This document shows, piece after piece, positions 1 to 10,839 of a DNA stretch of 26,844 bases; position 1 is the stretch's first letter, and each line of letters opens with the position of its first letter. Position numbers and translations under genes: made by a program. The notes beneath the pieces were generated by a model, which was given only the letters and a program-made list of their open reading frames with translations, was not told the origin of the DNA and did not search any database. This stretch comes from a virus. Location: positions 1 to 26,844 of IMG/VR virus record IMGVR_UViG_3300027906_000123; one strand, 5' to 3'.

Positions 1-703
1 CTGTCTCAAACATATACGCTGAGTTCCTAGAAAGCATAGGCATATGTTCCTTCATATCTTCTGGTATATCTTTAGCTATCTCAGTGTGATACCACAGTAG
101 ATGTAACATGTGAGCTGCTGCCCACATATTAGCCAGCACAAGTTGAGGTGTTTCATCTTGTGCTTCACCAGTACATCCCGCTGCATGTATAGGTGAACCT
201 GTCGTGTCAGTTAGTATGTCAGGATAATAAACCCGTGGATCACATGGAGTCCCACGCATACTAGACTCATAGAAGTATGCATCAGCATCAGTGTAACCGT
301 TACCACCTATGATTGATTTGTATCCCTGAGTATCACATGCCTCCAGTATTAGTTTCCTAGCTGGATGATTATCGGCACAACCAAGAAGCCATGTGTATTC
401 TGGTGAACCAATGACCCCTTCCAGTTCTCCTGAGAAATACCTAGGTACTGTATACATCATGCACTGAGCTTCATTCTTATACCTAGATGAAAGTGCTTCC
501 GCTTTGTTAGAACCTATATCTTCTTTCCTGAACAGTTGCCTGTCCATGTTCTTCAACTCTAGATCATCCCCATCATGTATAGTAATGGAATCATGTTGAT
601 CTGCTAGTTTAACCAGAGCAGGTAGTAACCAACTACCTACTCCGCCTGCTCCTATTATATGATAATGTCTGTTCATGTCATTGGGTATATTAAAAATAAA
701 CAT
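1..703 (-). CDS. E1-like (ThiF family) adenylyltransferase, C-terminus cut by window edge
   Basis: By family this enzyme adenylates the C-terminus of a ubiquitin-like protein using ATP and passes it on as a thioester. Of the protein, 234 residues are visible. Translation from the ATG at 703 gives a nucleotide-binding glycine motif GAGGVGSW at residues 18-25, acidic D44 and D46, N52 with R55-Q56 (the N..RQ of E1 enzymes), K67, and D111 in GCADNHPARK. These match the ThiF/MoeB/E1 active site in order and spacing. C177 in HAAGCTGEA is the best candidate transfer cysteine, and no CxxC zinc pair is seen so far. The start follows the stop of the upstream gene directly (TAA then ATG). The context, with an E2-like gene two genes upstream and a double ubiquitin-like gene before it, fits the E1 of the PRTRC or related prokaryotic systems. 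The C-terminus lies outside the window. Confidence 0.88.
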   Translation of the reverse strand, partial: MFIFNIPNDMNRHYHIIGAGGVGSWLLPALVKLADQHDSITIHDGDDLELKNMDRQLFRKEDIGSNKAEALSSRYKNEAQCMMYTVPRYFSGELEGVIGSPEYTWLLGCADNHPARKLILEACDTQGYKSIIGGNGYTDADAYFYESSMRGTPCDPRVYYPDILTDTTGSPIHAAGCTGEAQDETPQLVLANMWAAAHMLHLLWYHTEIAKDIPEDMKEHMPMLSRNSAYMFET

Positions 704-1075
704 TTATTCTACTGTTCGTGATCTAATGCATTCATCTAAGATGCTCTGTGATAAAGTTCTTTTTTCACATTGAGTTATCTTAGATCTAATAAAGTACAGT
801 GGATTCAGAAGCATATCTGTATGTTCATCACCCATTCCCTCTATCCTGTTACCTTGCCTAAGGTAGATCCATATCAACTTCCACAGTTTCTCCCTACCTA
901 AGCTTCCCATTGATTCTAAAGATCTTACATTAGAAAACTCTTCAGGCCTGTCACTCATTATAGATGTAATAATTATAGCTTCGCTTTTTATTGACCTCTC
1001 TTCTAGATCACTCATCTCTGAGACAAGTTGATTATCTATAATCGTCATTGACTTTGGTATTGAATTTATTTTCAT
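704..1075 (-). CDS. Unknown 123-residue protein between E2 and E1
   Basis: I recognise no family. The 123-residue protein is mixed charged and mostly helical in appearance. A segment around residues 60-75 (REKLWKLIWIYLRQGN) is aromatic and amphipathic, and four Met/Ser-rich turns lie in the first half. It has two cysteines, near the C-terminus. Its start lies 2 bases after the stop of the E2-like gene and its stop abuts the start of the E1-like gene, so the three are almost certainly translated from one message. That position makes it a candidate partner of the conjugation enzymes (adaptor, target or specificity factor), which is inference from location only. Confidence 0.75.
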   Translation of the reverse strand: MKINSIPKSMTIIDNQLVSEMSDLEERSIKSEAIIITSIMSDRPEEFSNVRSLESMGSLGREKLWKLIWIYLRQGNRIEGMGDEHTDMLLNPLYFIRSKITQCEKRTLSQSILDECIRSRTVE

Positions 1076-1077
1076 TG

Positions 1078-1926
1078 TTATACGCTTATATTTTCTAAGT
1101 AAGTTTTACTGAAACTCTCCATAAGAATATGAGCAGGACACGGAACACCTAACTGCTGGTTTGTATCTGTACAAAACCTGAACAGTACTGATGAGTTCCT
1201 ACCTTTAGTTGAGTTTGTTAAGTCAGAGTTCCAAGGAGTGCTATAGAATAAGTCTATGTTCTTCTTAGTTGCATCAACAATTCCTATGTCCTCCATGTAA
1301 GTTTCACCAAAACATATCTCACTGTTCTCATAAACATTACCTGTAGGTAAAACAAACCACCCTTTAGATTCCTCATGCCATTTATTACTTTCATGAGATT
1401 CAATCTTGCAGTGAAGATAACTTCTAGCTGGTCGCCATGTATTGTTATCTGTTTTCCCGTGGTACTCCATTGTAATATATAATTTTATATATTCAGGAAC
1501 TACCCAGTCCAACGTGTAAGTCTGCCTGTTACTTCTAGATTCTGAATCGCCATTCCTAAATGTAGGGGACAACCATTTGTCAGGTAGTCCATCAAAATCT
1601 ATACATTCTTTCTCGTTATCATTTGAGAAAAGCATAAACACATCTTTAGTTATTACTTCAAATGTTGTGTTAAACTTAAGCTTACTCAATTGAGTGGTTA
1701 CTAAGCTTAGTGATATAGAATCTTCCCCTTTAGGTTCAAGCCTAGAAAAATTCATAGGCATACCAGCCATTGATGATATATTATTAACCATCATTGGTTG
1801 AGATTCTATATGACGCTTTAATCTTTGATCCATTGTACCTTTATACATCATTCTGTATTCAGGTTCGAACACACCTTGATCTGTTAGTATCAAGTGTTTT
1901 GATTTTATTATATCTTCGTATTTCAT
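1078..1926 (-). CDS. E2-like ubiquitin-conjugating protein (PRTRC-B / Prok-E2 family D type)
   Basis: The 282-residue protein is proposed to accept the activated modifier from the E1 on a cysteine and hand it to a target. The supporting stretch is residues 190-236: WFVLPTGNVY, then SEICFGE with C205, then DLFYSTPWNSDL. This reproduces the pattern NVy.dG.vC.G followed by F..S.F that I know from PRTRC system protein B, a UBC-fold E2-like family, with N197 and C205 as the likely catalytic pair. The N-terminal 150 residues are poorly conserved and may be a family-specific extension. Its ATG at 1926 has only AT-rich sequence upstream and no clear Shine-Dalgarno, and a terminator sits between it and the modifier gene, so it may be expressed at a lower level by read-through or its own promoter. 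Family assignment rests on motif reading without a profile search. Confidence 0.68.
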   Translation of the reverse strand: MKYEDIIKSKHLILTDQGVFEPEYRMMYKGTMDQRLKRHIESQPMMVNNISSMAGMPMNFSRLEPKGEDSISLSLVTTQLSKLKFNTTFEVITKDVFMLFSNDNEKECIDFDGLPDKWLSPTFRNGDSESRSNRQTYTLDWVVPEYIKLYITMEYHGKTDNNTWRPARSYLHCKIESHESNKWHEESKGWFVLPTGNVYENSEICFGETYMEDIGIVDATKKNIDLFYSTPWNSDLTNSTKGRNSSVLFRFCTDTNQQLGVPCPAHILMESFSKTYLENISV

Positions 1927-1951
1927 ATTATTATTTATTGTATAGAAACAG

Positions 1952-1980
1952 AAAAACCCCCACGGATTTACCCGTGAGGG
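1952..1980 (-). terminator. Intrinsic terminator after the double ubiquitin-like gene
   Basis: Read on the minus strand, a 9-bp stem (CCCUCACGG with CCGUGGGGG, one U-G pair) closes a 6-base loop and is followed at once by five U residues. It lies 43 bases after the stop of the modifier gene and just before the E2-like gene. It would let the modifier be made in excess over the enzymes. Confidence 0.72.
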
Positions 1981-2022
1981 CTGCAGTTCTGCTCCTAAAA
2001 GGCTAGCCTTGTAAGGCCAGAG

Positions 2023-2466
2023 TTAAACAGCCTTTGAATTGGCTGCGGTTTCAACACTAATCACATCACCTTCTGTGACAGTGTTTGATTCAGGCTGAGT
2101 AGCCCCGTCGATTAACGCTTTGACATTATCGCCAAAGCCCAGTGCTGCACGTACTCTTCTGAGTACATCACCAATGGAACTACCCACTGGAACAGAGGTT
2201 GTGATGCTCCGCTCAAGACCATACTTGACGGTCACGGAAACCTCATCTGCTGCCTTTGAATTGGCCGCAGTTTCGACAGTGATTACATCACCACATCTAA
2301 CAGTGTTAGACTCTGGTTGAGTAACACCACCAATTAAGGCTTTAACATTGCTGCCAAAACCTAGAGCAGGACGAACCTTCTCTAACACTTGAGCGATAGA
2401 TGAACCATCCTCAACCTCGATTGTAGCTTGACGCTCCAATCCATAACGAACTGTTATATTAATCAT
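2023..2466 (-). CDS. Tandem double ubiquitin-like (beta-grasp) modifier protein
   Basis: The 147-residue protein is two near-identical beta-grasp domains in series with a 74-residue period. Each runs: strand (NITVRYG / SVTVKYG), strand (ATIEVEDG), helix (SSIAQVLEKVRPALGFG), strand (NVKALI.G), then TQPESNTV..GDVI.VETAANSKA, the final GD-V/I strand being typical of the MoaD/ThiS/ubiquitin-like fold. The first domain ends ...ANSKAADE and the second ...ANSKAV with no terminal Gly-Gly, so conjugation would need processing or a different chemistry. I start at 2466 because AGGAGA lies 6 bases upstream. An in-frame ATG at 2493 has no such site. Base composition is more GC-rich than its neighbours. 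Genes for E1- and E2-like enzymes follow on the same strand. Confidence 0.8.
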   Translation of the reverse strand: MINITVRYGLERQATIEVEDGSSIAQVLEKVRPALGFGSNVKALIGGVTQPESNTVRCGDVITVETAANSKAADEVSVTVKYGLERSITTSVPVGSSIGDVLRRVRAALGFGDNVKALIDGATQPESNTVTEGDVISVETAANSKAV

Positions 2467-2870: not shown

Positions 2871-3539
2871 TTATATATCCATGTGCATTATCCTTACACT
2901 TTTGTGACTAATATTTTTGTCACTTATTAATCTCTGAGTTCTCAGTATTATATGCTCAGAGTTAGATGTAATCACTAAAGGCTTAGTCGTCTTCCTGTTT
3001 TGCTGTTCAGTAAGTTTAATATCAGGCAGACCTACATCTTTCCCTGTAAAACCTCTCAACATATTAAGCCCATCATCTTGCTCCCAGTATCCTTTGTATA
3101 TAAGCCTGAGAAACAGATTAGGTAACTCGCATTGAATCGCTGGATGTAAGTGTGCCTCAGGTAATTGCCAGAATATATTAGATCCATTCTTAATTGCATA
3201 CATACATTCAAGTATCTTGTTGTATAGGTTTAAGTATCCACCACTCAACCAATCTATCTCTTCCCATTTGAGATAAGTCCCATGCTTCATAGCCATACAA
3301 TTTAACATGTCATGTGCCAGCTTGCGTTCCTCTTCTGATAAAGAATCACCTATAATCAATTCATCAGAAACTTTTACATAACTATGGTTCAATGGCGTGA
3401 AGTTAAAGTGTGTAGATATTCTTGGCCCATATATATACATAAGGGATGTATCCTCTGAATAATCTAGCACACTAGTTTCGCCGCTAGCTTTATTGTATAG
3501 AACAACATTGTGCTGTTCTTCATTTACTGTAGCCCACAT
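2871..3539 (-). CDS. ABC/OLD-type ATPase C-terminal lobe without P-loop
   Basis: The 222-residue protein carries the C-terminal half motifs of the AbiEii/OLD/DUF3696-like ABC ATPases: an ABC signature-like LSGGYLNL at residues 98-105, a Walker B/D-loop region FWQLPEAHLHP at 123-133 (family form: EQPELHLHP), and a switch segment SNSEHIILRTQRLI at 192-205 (family form: HSEHLLLRLQ). There is no GxxxxGKS/T anywhere, and the Walker B acidic residue before P is replaced by Leu, so it should not hydrolyse ATP by itself. The start overlaps the upstream stop by one base (TAATG). It may be a relic, a partner for a P-loop half elsewhere, or a decoy of host defence ATPases. The last two are speculation. 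Confidence 0.65.
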   Translation of the reverse strand: MWATVNEEQHNVVLYNKASGETSVLDYSEDTSLMYIYGPRISTHFNFTPLNHSYVKVSDELIIGDSLSEEERKLAHDMLNCMAMKHGTYLKWEEIDWLSGGYLNLYNKILECMYAIKNGSNIFWQLPEAHLHPAIQCELPNLFLRLIYKGYWEQDDGLNMLRGFTGKDVGLPDIKLTEQQNRKTTKPLVITSNSEHIILRTQRLISDKNISHKSVRIMHMDI

Positions 3540-9819: not shown

Positions 9820-10456
9820 TACAGGAATAATGCAAGAAGACGAAAGACCTATGGATATGCCAGAGGGTGAGACTACTGTTGTCCCACCTACAAAGGGGAT
9901 GTTCTCAGCTAAAGAAGCTAAACAAGCCGCAGCTAGTACTGGATTAGTAGCTGTTAAAAGAAAGAAATATTCTGAGTTAAAGAAGCTTGGAGACTTCATA
10001 GAGAATGAAGGAGTTGTAAAGACCAGCATTGGTTATGTTTTCCTATCAGCAGAGAAGCTTGAACCATTAATGCAGCTTGCTGCTGATATAGCATATGAAT
10101 CTGATGATGATGCAATAAAGCTACAAGCAATAAGTAAAGCTGTTGAAGTATCTAAACAACTCACCGAATCCGCTAAAATATGCGGGAATATGGTGAATAA
10201 TAAGCAATTGAAGTCCGAAGAAACTAAAAAGAAAGCTAGCTTCATGCCCGGACAACAACTAACACCAATACAAATCAATGACCCAAAACAAGTCACTATC
10301 AGCGGAGGACAGCCTGACAGCGGAACAAGCTCAGGAGGCGATAATATTAACGCTAAAGAAAATGCAGGACAAACCGAGCCCAGCTTTCATGGCGGGGATA
10401 ATGTCGCAAGCACTGGATCTGAAGACCAGCATGGCGAAGAAAGCAGCGGAAGTTAA
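9812..10456 (+). CDS. Unknown 214-residue protein, possible small terminase-like or accessory head protein
   Basis: I start at ATG 9812, which overlaps the previous stop. A TTG at 9803 would add three residues. Residues 25-140 are helical and alternate Lys/Glu-rich (KEAKQAAASTGLVAVKRKKY; LGDFIENEGVVKTSIGYVFL; DAIKLQAISKAVEVSKQLTE). Residues 150-214 are Gly/Ser-rich and disordered, and are encoded in DNA shared with the next gene in another frame. The position just before the lysozyme and terminase genes and the helical core would fit a small terminase subunit, but no helix-turn-helix is certain. Confidence 0.7.
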   Translation: MSDTGIMQEDERPMDMPEGETTVVPPTKGMFSAKEAKQAAASTGLVAVKRKKYSELKKLGDFIENEGVVKTSIGYVFLSAEKLEPLMQLAADIAYESDDDAIKLQAISKAVEVSKQLTESAKICGNMVNNKQLKSEETKKKASFMPGQQLTPIQINDPKQVTISGGQPDSGTSSGGDNINAKENAGQTEPSFHGGDNVASTGSEDQHGEESSGS

Positions 10457-10721
10457 AGTAGAAAATTTAATCTTATTTGATAAGAAGCAAAGCGACTATG
10501 GTAGTAAGAATATAGCAGCTTGGGAGAAGAAAAACTTAAACATATTAGGTGTTGGATTTCGGCTAAATGATAAATTGCAAAGAATGATGAACCTAACATG
10601 GAAACGGATAGAGAACAAAGAATCGTCAGAAGCACAGAATGAGCCTATGCTAGACACAGCGAAAGACATAGAGAACTACGGTACAATACTGGAGTTACTA
10701 GAGTCCGATGAATGGAGTTAA
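10278..10721 (+). CDS. Unknown 147-residue helical protein
   Basis: The N-terminal part is helical (TAEQAQEAIILTLKKMQDKP) and lies over the Gly/Ser-rich tail of the previous gene for 179 bases in a different frame. The C-terminal half is acidic and helical (DTAKDIENYGTILELLESDE). No family is recognised. The coherent amphipathic pattern in the overlap suggests this frame is the older one and the tail of the upstream gene was created by overprinting. It ends 4 bases before a small basic gene. Confidence 0.68.
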   Translation: MTQNKSLSAEDSLTAEQAQEAIILTLKKMQDKPSPAFMAGIMSQALDLKTSMAKKAAEVKVENLILFDKKQSDYGSKNIAAWEKKNLNILGVGFRLNDKLQRMMNLTWKRIENKESSEAQNEPMLDTAKDIENYGTILELLESDEWS

Positions 10722-10725
10722 TATT

Positions 10726-10839
10726 ATGCCAACAGCAGGAAAGAAAAAATTCCCGTACACGAAGAAGGGAAAAGAAGAGGCGAGGAAATACGCTAAGAAA
10801 AAAGGTTTAACCGTTAAAAATAAAAAAGGTAAATATTAA
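10726..10839 (+). CDS. Small Lys/Gly-rich basic protein, 37 residues
   Basis: Begins MPTAGKKKFPYTKKGKEEAR and ends KKGKY: very basic, with an aromatic FPYTK core. I recall very similar short proteins (GKKKFPYT.KG...A) in structural modules of many marine phages, of unknown function, possibly DNA-binding virion components. Its TAA overlaps the lysozyme ATG (TAATG). Confidence 0.72.
   Translation: MPTAGKKKFPYTKKGKEEARKYAKKKGLTVKNKKGKY

Follow-up and report, generated by a model that had tools for sequence, protein, structure and literature searches.

A phage-borne gene cassette for a probable reversible ubiquitin-like protein-conjugation pathway

The IMG/VR virus record IMGVR_UViG_3300027906_000123, analysed in its entirety (26,844 bases; referred to below as the window), opens within a gene cassette that probably specifies a pathway, encoded by the phage itself, for reversible conjugation of a ubiquitin-like modifier to proteins. 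This assignment draws on sequences and structural models, and is carried by the gene identities, the conservation of catalytic residues and of gene order, and the fold of the modifier. The first 2.5 kb of the window is taken up, by ORF calling, with minus-strand genes for a modifier, an E2-like protein, a small protein (X) and an E1. A sequence-only reading had proposed these four adjacent genes, and they are found where it placed them, with conserved catalytic residues. The cassette is truncated at base 1, inside the E1 gene, and continues in relatives with a further small gene (Y) and a JAB protease gene. In bacteria, ubiquitin-like conjugation is familiar chiefly as a defence against phages (CBASS, Bil), and otherwise from the PRTRC sets of mobile elements. 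Here uncultured phages have the whole set, and its catalytic residues are retained across widely diverged members, so that which proteins phages tag becomes a question open to experiment; a complete tagging kit of their own suggests that protein tagging is carried out by these phages themselves.

The E1 gene (positions 2-703, minus strand) is open at the contig edge and yields 234 of 245 amino acids; a complete copy lies at 10001-10738 of the closest relative, L003 (IMGVR_UViG_3300030376_005986; 65.9 kb, 99% identity). Its motifs comprise GAGGVG, N52, R55, Q56, K67, D111 and the catalytic C177, of which D111 and C177 are invariant (58/58); the GxGG glycines, D44, D46, N52, R55 and Q56 are kept in 56 of 58. 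With 63.5 bits to ThiF (PF00899; cut-off 28.1), the E1/ThiF identity first proposed from the sequence is secure. The protein also matches PRTRC_ThiF (TIGR03736; E 2.7e-11) at 43.3 bits, below the 144.75 cut-off, and PADLOC E1-E2 models match its Rossmann part.

The E2-like gene (1078-1926, minus strand) encodes 282 amino acids with the motif N197-VYENSEI-C205-FG. N197, C205, D235 and L236 are invariant in 47/47 homologs, the window included, and the Asn-to-Cys distance is 8 residues in 44 of the 47, which we take to be the HPN...Cys spacing of eukaryotic E2s. A search for a conserved histidine downstream of the cysteine gave none (the best His column is occupied in 11/47); D235 is invariant instead, and its position presumably approximates that of the catalytic acid of eukaryotic E2s. 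The match of the window protein to PF14460 (Prok-E2_D) is weak (E 0.012, below the curated cut-off); that of the relative L004 is better (E 9e-4), 7 of 10 members tested match, and among the other homologs, many of which match sub-threshold, L068 exceeds the curated cut-off. The AlphaFold model (pLDDT 79) runs from a beta meander through the Asn/Cys loop to two helices, a secondary-structure order as expected of a UBC fold. Its sole Foldseek match among viral models is an uncharacterised phage protein (A0A6J5NI06), and none was returned in the PDB at E <= 0.001. Because Foldseek gave no UBC structure, the claim made here stops short of that fold: what stands of the original E2-like call is the assignment favoured by the PF14460 profile, the motif, the predicted secondary structure and the neighbouring genes.

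The modifier gene (2023-2466, minus strand) encodes 147 amino acids forming two beta-grasp domains, each terminating in VETAANSKA. Translation could also begin upstream, at 2493, for a product of 156 amino acids, but the homologs in L004 and L005 begin at the position of 2466, which speaks for that start. The AlphaFold model (pLDDT 82.8) has a bb-a-bbb arrangement twice; its confidence is low where the two domains end, at residues 69-73 and 143-147. In Foldseek it yields 166 PDB matches at E <= 0.001, headed by linear di-ubiquitin, ISG15 and FAT10 with E values reaching 8e-10, so that the two beta-grasp domains read from the sequence are borne out: as modelled, the window modifier is a linear di-ubiquitin/ISG15-like double beta-grasp protein. 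By profile it matches PADLOC BilA (E 7.8e-4) and, weakly, ThiS-like families; PDB sequence searches with modifier, E2 and JAB profiles gave nothing useful. Doubling is confined to the window clade and one other contig (L047), the modifiers of the other contigs being single-domain; relatives' modifiers are mostly monomers, often with a short tail. Natural linear precursors of paired ubiquitin-like domains are thus now found in viruses of bacteria.

A lysine in the modifier tail is invariant (n=45) and is followed by Ala in 36/45, by Gly in 5/45 (a count that includes L047, whose HDKG was read by eye, the script having classed it "?") and by Gln, Asn or Glu in four (L022, L070, L018 and L065); these four speak against the conjugation reading, as none of those three residues is known to sustain conjugation. 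The residue after the lysine is the very last in 20 of the 45. From these tails we infer that Lys-Ala is the working end of the modifier and that the JAB protease trims or splits whatever follows it. The cGAS proteins of Cap2/Cap3 operons have a C-terminal Gly or Ala, and an example with Ala is reported to be conjugated (Jenson et al., PMC10097602); Ala is therefore chemically acceptable as a modifier end, and the present proteins add Ala-ended beta-grasp modifiers in agreement with the Gly/Ala rule of cGAS. In the tree built from E1, the clade of the window, with Ala-ended modifiers, is sister to a Gly-ended pair, and hence the modifier end has changed more than once.

The suggestion that a JAB peptidase might lie to the left of base 1 is upheld in all four near relatives, L003, L004, L005 and L011 (the last three more divergent and, like L003, extending past that point). 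The gene occupies L003:12528-13598, and the proteins (356-374 amino acids in these relatives) carry HHHCSSSAFQSGTD, a perfect HxHx7SxxD JAMM motif that recurs in 60/61 contigs, the remaining one being a fragment. PRTRC_A (TIGR03735) is matched by 11 of 11 proteins tested (best E 4.7e-7; below the 101.8-bit cut-off in the member shown), in which R66, W78 and W81 of the N-terminal part are invariant together with the JAMM residues (n=11); the L092 protein exceeds the Prok-JAB cut-off. Searches of named phages by tblastn found no homolog of the JAB protein, the modifier or the window E2, nor did a plasmid search with the L004 E2.

A scan with the JAB profile added eight virus contigs, one with the E1 profile brought the total to 49 loci, and a genome scan contributed 12 MAG contigs, mostly labelled Verrucomicrobiota (MAG labels can be wrong). 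The 61 distinct related contigs that were compared include some near-copies and so represent fewer independent lineages. Modifier, E2, E1 and JAB follow one another in that order in 42/61 (37 IMG/VR virus contigs and 5 MAG contigs) and in another order in 3; nine lack the modifier, or both modifier and E2, most of them being cut by a contig end; four have JAB and E1 only and three JAB only. Invariance of C177, N197, C205 and D235 and retention of the gene order in 42 contigs argue that the cassette is not a product of chance. That a compact E1-E2-modifier set in a phage is unusual, as had been remarked, needs adjusting: the set is indeed phage-borne, but with its order present in about 37 IMG/VR contigs it is no one-off. 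A search of the open-licence literature, with subscription papers and preprints outside its range, turned up no report of a phage-borne set of this kind. Some loci depart from the pattern. In L043 (4266-13287), an Opitutus MAG contig, a second PF14460 E2 (67.7 bits) with an E1 lies a few kb from a phage-like cassette. The record of an unannotated human gut phage (L007, MT835919.1) has JAB, E1 and, at a distance of 5 kb, a PF14460 E2 that exceeds the cut-off (44.3 bits); no modifier was recognised there. Contigs L094-L097 (62-216 kb) have a large JAB followed by a distant-type E1, with neither modifier nor E2 beside the pair.

X (704-1075, minus strand; 123 amino acids) diverges fast, its place being kept and its sequence not (15-18% identity to L004, L005 and L011). 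Its gene abuts that of E1 (704/703) and lies 2 bases from that of E2. Beyond the window the order in relatives is E1 C-terminus, HNH, Y (L003:11959-12525), JAB, Z (L003:13595-13813) and W (L003:13815-14780). In three of the four window-clade phages the HNH gene separates E1 from Y (L003:10752-11954, L004:10771-11877 and L005:10735-11586); it is absent there in L011, in which a related HNH gene sits after W; read by eye, with no Pfam match, it looks like a mobile, homing-endonuclease-like element inside the cassette. The Y N-terminus and the W C-terminus have in common a domain with the motif APxNPxxRxxxRxxTNxVxPD, and the Y profile matches W (E about 1e-6). W was considered as a conserved seventh cassette gene and rejected, being specific to the window clade, with RecT or other genes in its place elsewhere; it could be an adaptor or a target.

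Besides the cassette, the window has a DnaB match (Pfam profiles) on the same strand and lysozyme and terminase-like matches. The L003 copy of the terminase matches phrog_2 at 1e-20, which identifies the window virus as a tailed phage. The sequence-only reading had called it virulent-looking; since a tyrosine integrase is encoded by 4/4 near relatives, these are probably temperate and that label is wrong. RecT is found in 10/25 virus contigs, adjoining JAB wherever the neighbourhood was read, and genes for a DUF2800/PD-(D/E)XK nuclease, AAA proteins and helicases lie beyond the cassette in virus contigs; the surroundings are thus those of early replication and recombination genes. Positions 2871-3539 of the window (minus strand) encode a protein of 222 amino acids that resembles an OLD/ABC-type ATPase in its C-terminal half (PEAHLHP, TSNSEH), lacks Walker A and matches PADLOC HEC-03B (E 1.1e-8).

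The conserved residues suggest how such a pathway might run. In the window clade the modifier would be made as a linear dimer; JAB would trim it after the Lys-Ala end and may split the dimer. E1 would adenylate the C-terminal Ala and take the modifier on to C177, from which E2 would accept it on C205, with N197 as the presumptive oxyanion-hole helper and D235 as acid helper, and pass it to a lysine of the target; JAB would then take the modifier off again. The setting of the cassette, amid genes for early replication and recombination, makes proteins that act early in infection, whether from phage or host, its likeliest targets. Tagging of host defence proteins or capsid components, or a block on host Bil/CBASS conjugation, as raised in the sequence-only reading, stays speculative. 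The analysis identified neither a target nor an E3 or degradation machine, and this counts against conjugation. It is a tentative proposal, for which we would give somewhat less than even chances, that temperate and other tailed phages possess a full conjugation pathway of their own, with Ala-ended modifiers, as a core early block that regulates replication or recombination proteins by reversible tagging. If this is so, the block amounts to a post-translational code of the phage's own rather than a host defence.

Other explanations of the cassette can be offered. The Bil defence system combines four activities, an ISG15-like double modifier, E2, E1 and JAB, and the same four here, along with the BilA match and ISG15 fold of the modifier and the integrases of all four near relatives, could indicate a prophage-carried, Bil-type anti-phage defence that tags virion parts of competitor phages. 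PADLOC, however, gave no BilB, BilC or BilD match for E2, JAB and E1, and the place and order of the cassette are kept, beside recombination genes, across divergent phages, most of them without a detected integrase, which gives it the look of a core gene block and not of a swapped-in defence gene; we regard this explanation as unlikely. Location on phages, and the second PF14460/E1 set near the phage-like cassette of the Opitutus contig, would also suit a counter-defence that competes with, or strips, Bil, CBASS or PRTRC modifications of the host; yet a protease or a decoy modifier would suffice for that purpose, whereas catalytic residues are kept in all the enzymes, and we consider it improbable.

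A sulfur-carrier pathway, in which a ThiS/MoaD-like protein with ThiF and JAB feeds a modified nucleoside or cofactor, would account for the ThiF-family E1 and the weak ThiS-like matches of the modifier, and JAB-linked sulfur carriers have been proposed (Iyer 2006, PMC1779556). It does not explain the presence of a dedicated E2 whose Cys is invariant (47/47), a modifier that lacks a terminal GG, or tandem modifiers, and rhodanese is absent from the contigs searched (0/25); its probability is very low. Reversible protein conjugation accordingly remains the preferred reading.

The closest known system is PRTRC, whose gene set we read, from the two descriptions, as being the type 6d operon of Iyer et al. 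(2006, PMC1779556). Type 6d operons encode a Ub-like protein with a highly conserved C-terminal Gly, a PF14460-kind E2 with an absolutely conserved His downstream of its Cys, a ThiF E1, a JAB whose N-terminal domain has conserved Arg and Trp, and a fast-diverging accessory protein (PMC1779556). The phage cassette shares the ThiF E1, the PF14460-kind E2, the JAB with an Arg/Trp N-terminal domain and a diverging accessory protein. It differs in that its modifier ends in Ala, rarely in Gly, and is doubled in the window clade, in the invariant Asp of an E2 without the conserved downstream His, in the lack of ParB (ParB_N, PF02195, in 0/25 virus contigs, with 11/14 controls positive) and in PRTRC profile scores that, where seen, fall below curated cut-offs. 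With Bil it shares the four activities and a BilA-matching window modifier, but it is carried by phages, lies beside early genes and has the extra genes X and Y, and PADLOC gave no match to BilB, BilC or BilD at E <= 0.01. CBASS Cap2/Cap3 has in common with it a ThiF-type E1, JAB, and a conjugated C-terminus formed by Gly or Ala (PMC10097602). Where Cap2 is an E2-E1 fusion with a CD-NTase neighbour, the window and its relatives have one gene for E1 and another for E2, and their tag is a genuine beta-grasp protein where that of CBASS is a cyclase. The TAPI-TAPK proteins of Lambda/T1 tail assembly likewise pair a phage-encoded Ub-like domain with JAB (PMC1779556), but without E1 and E2, and the present cassette lies outside the tail module. 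Since terminal Gly, E2 His and ParB of PRTRC/6d are lacking and only BilA among the Bil proteins is matched by profile, the cassette is best called, on present sequence comparisons, a phage-borne variant that would work like PRTRC/6d and Bil and has parts homologous to theirs, while being a member of neither.
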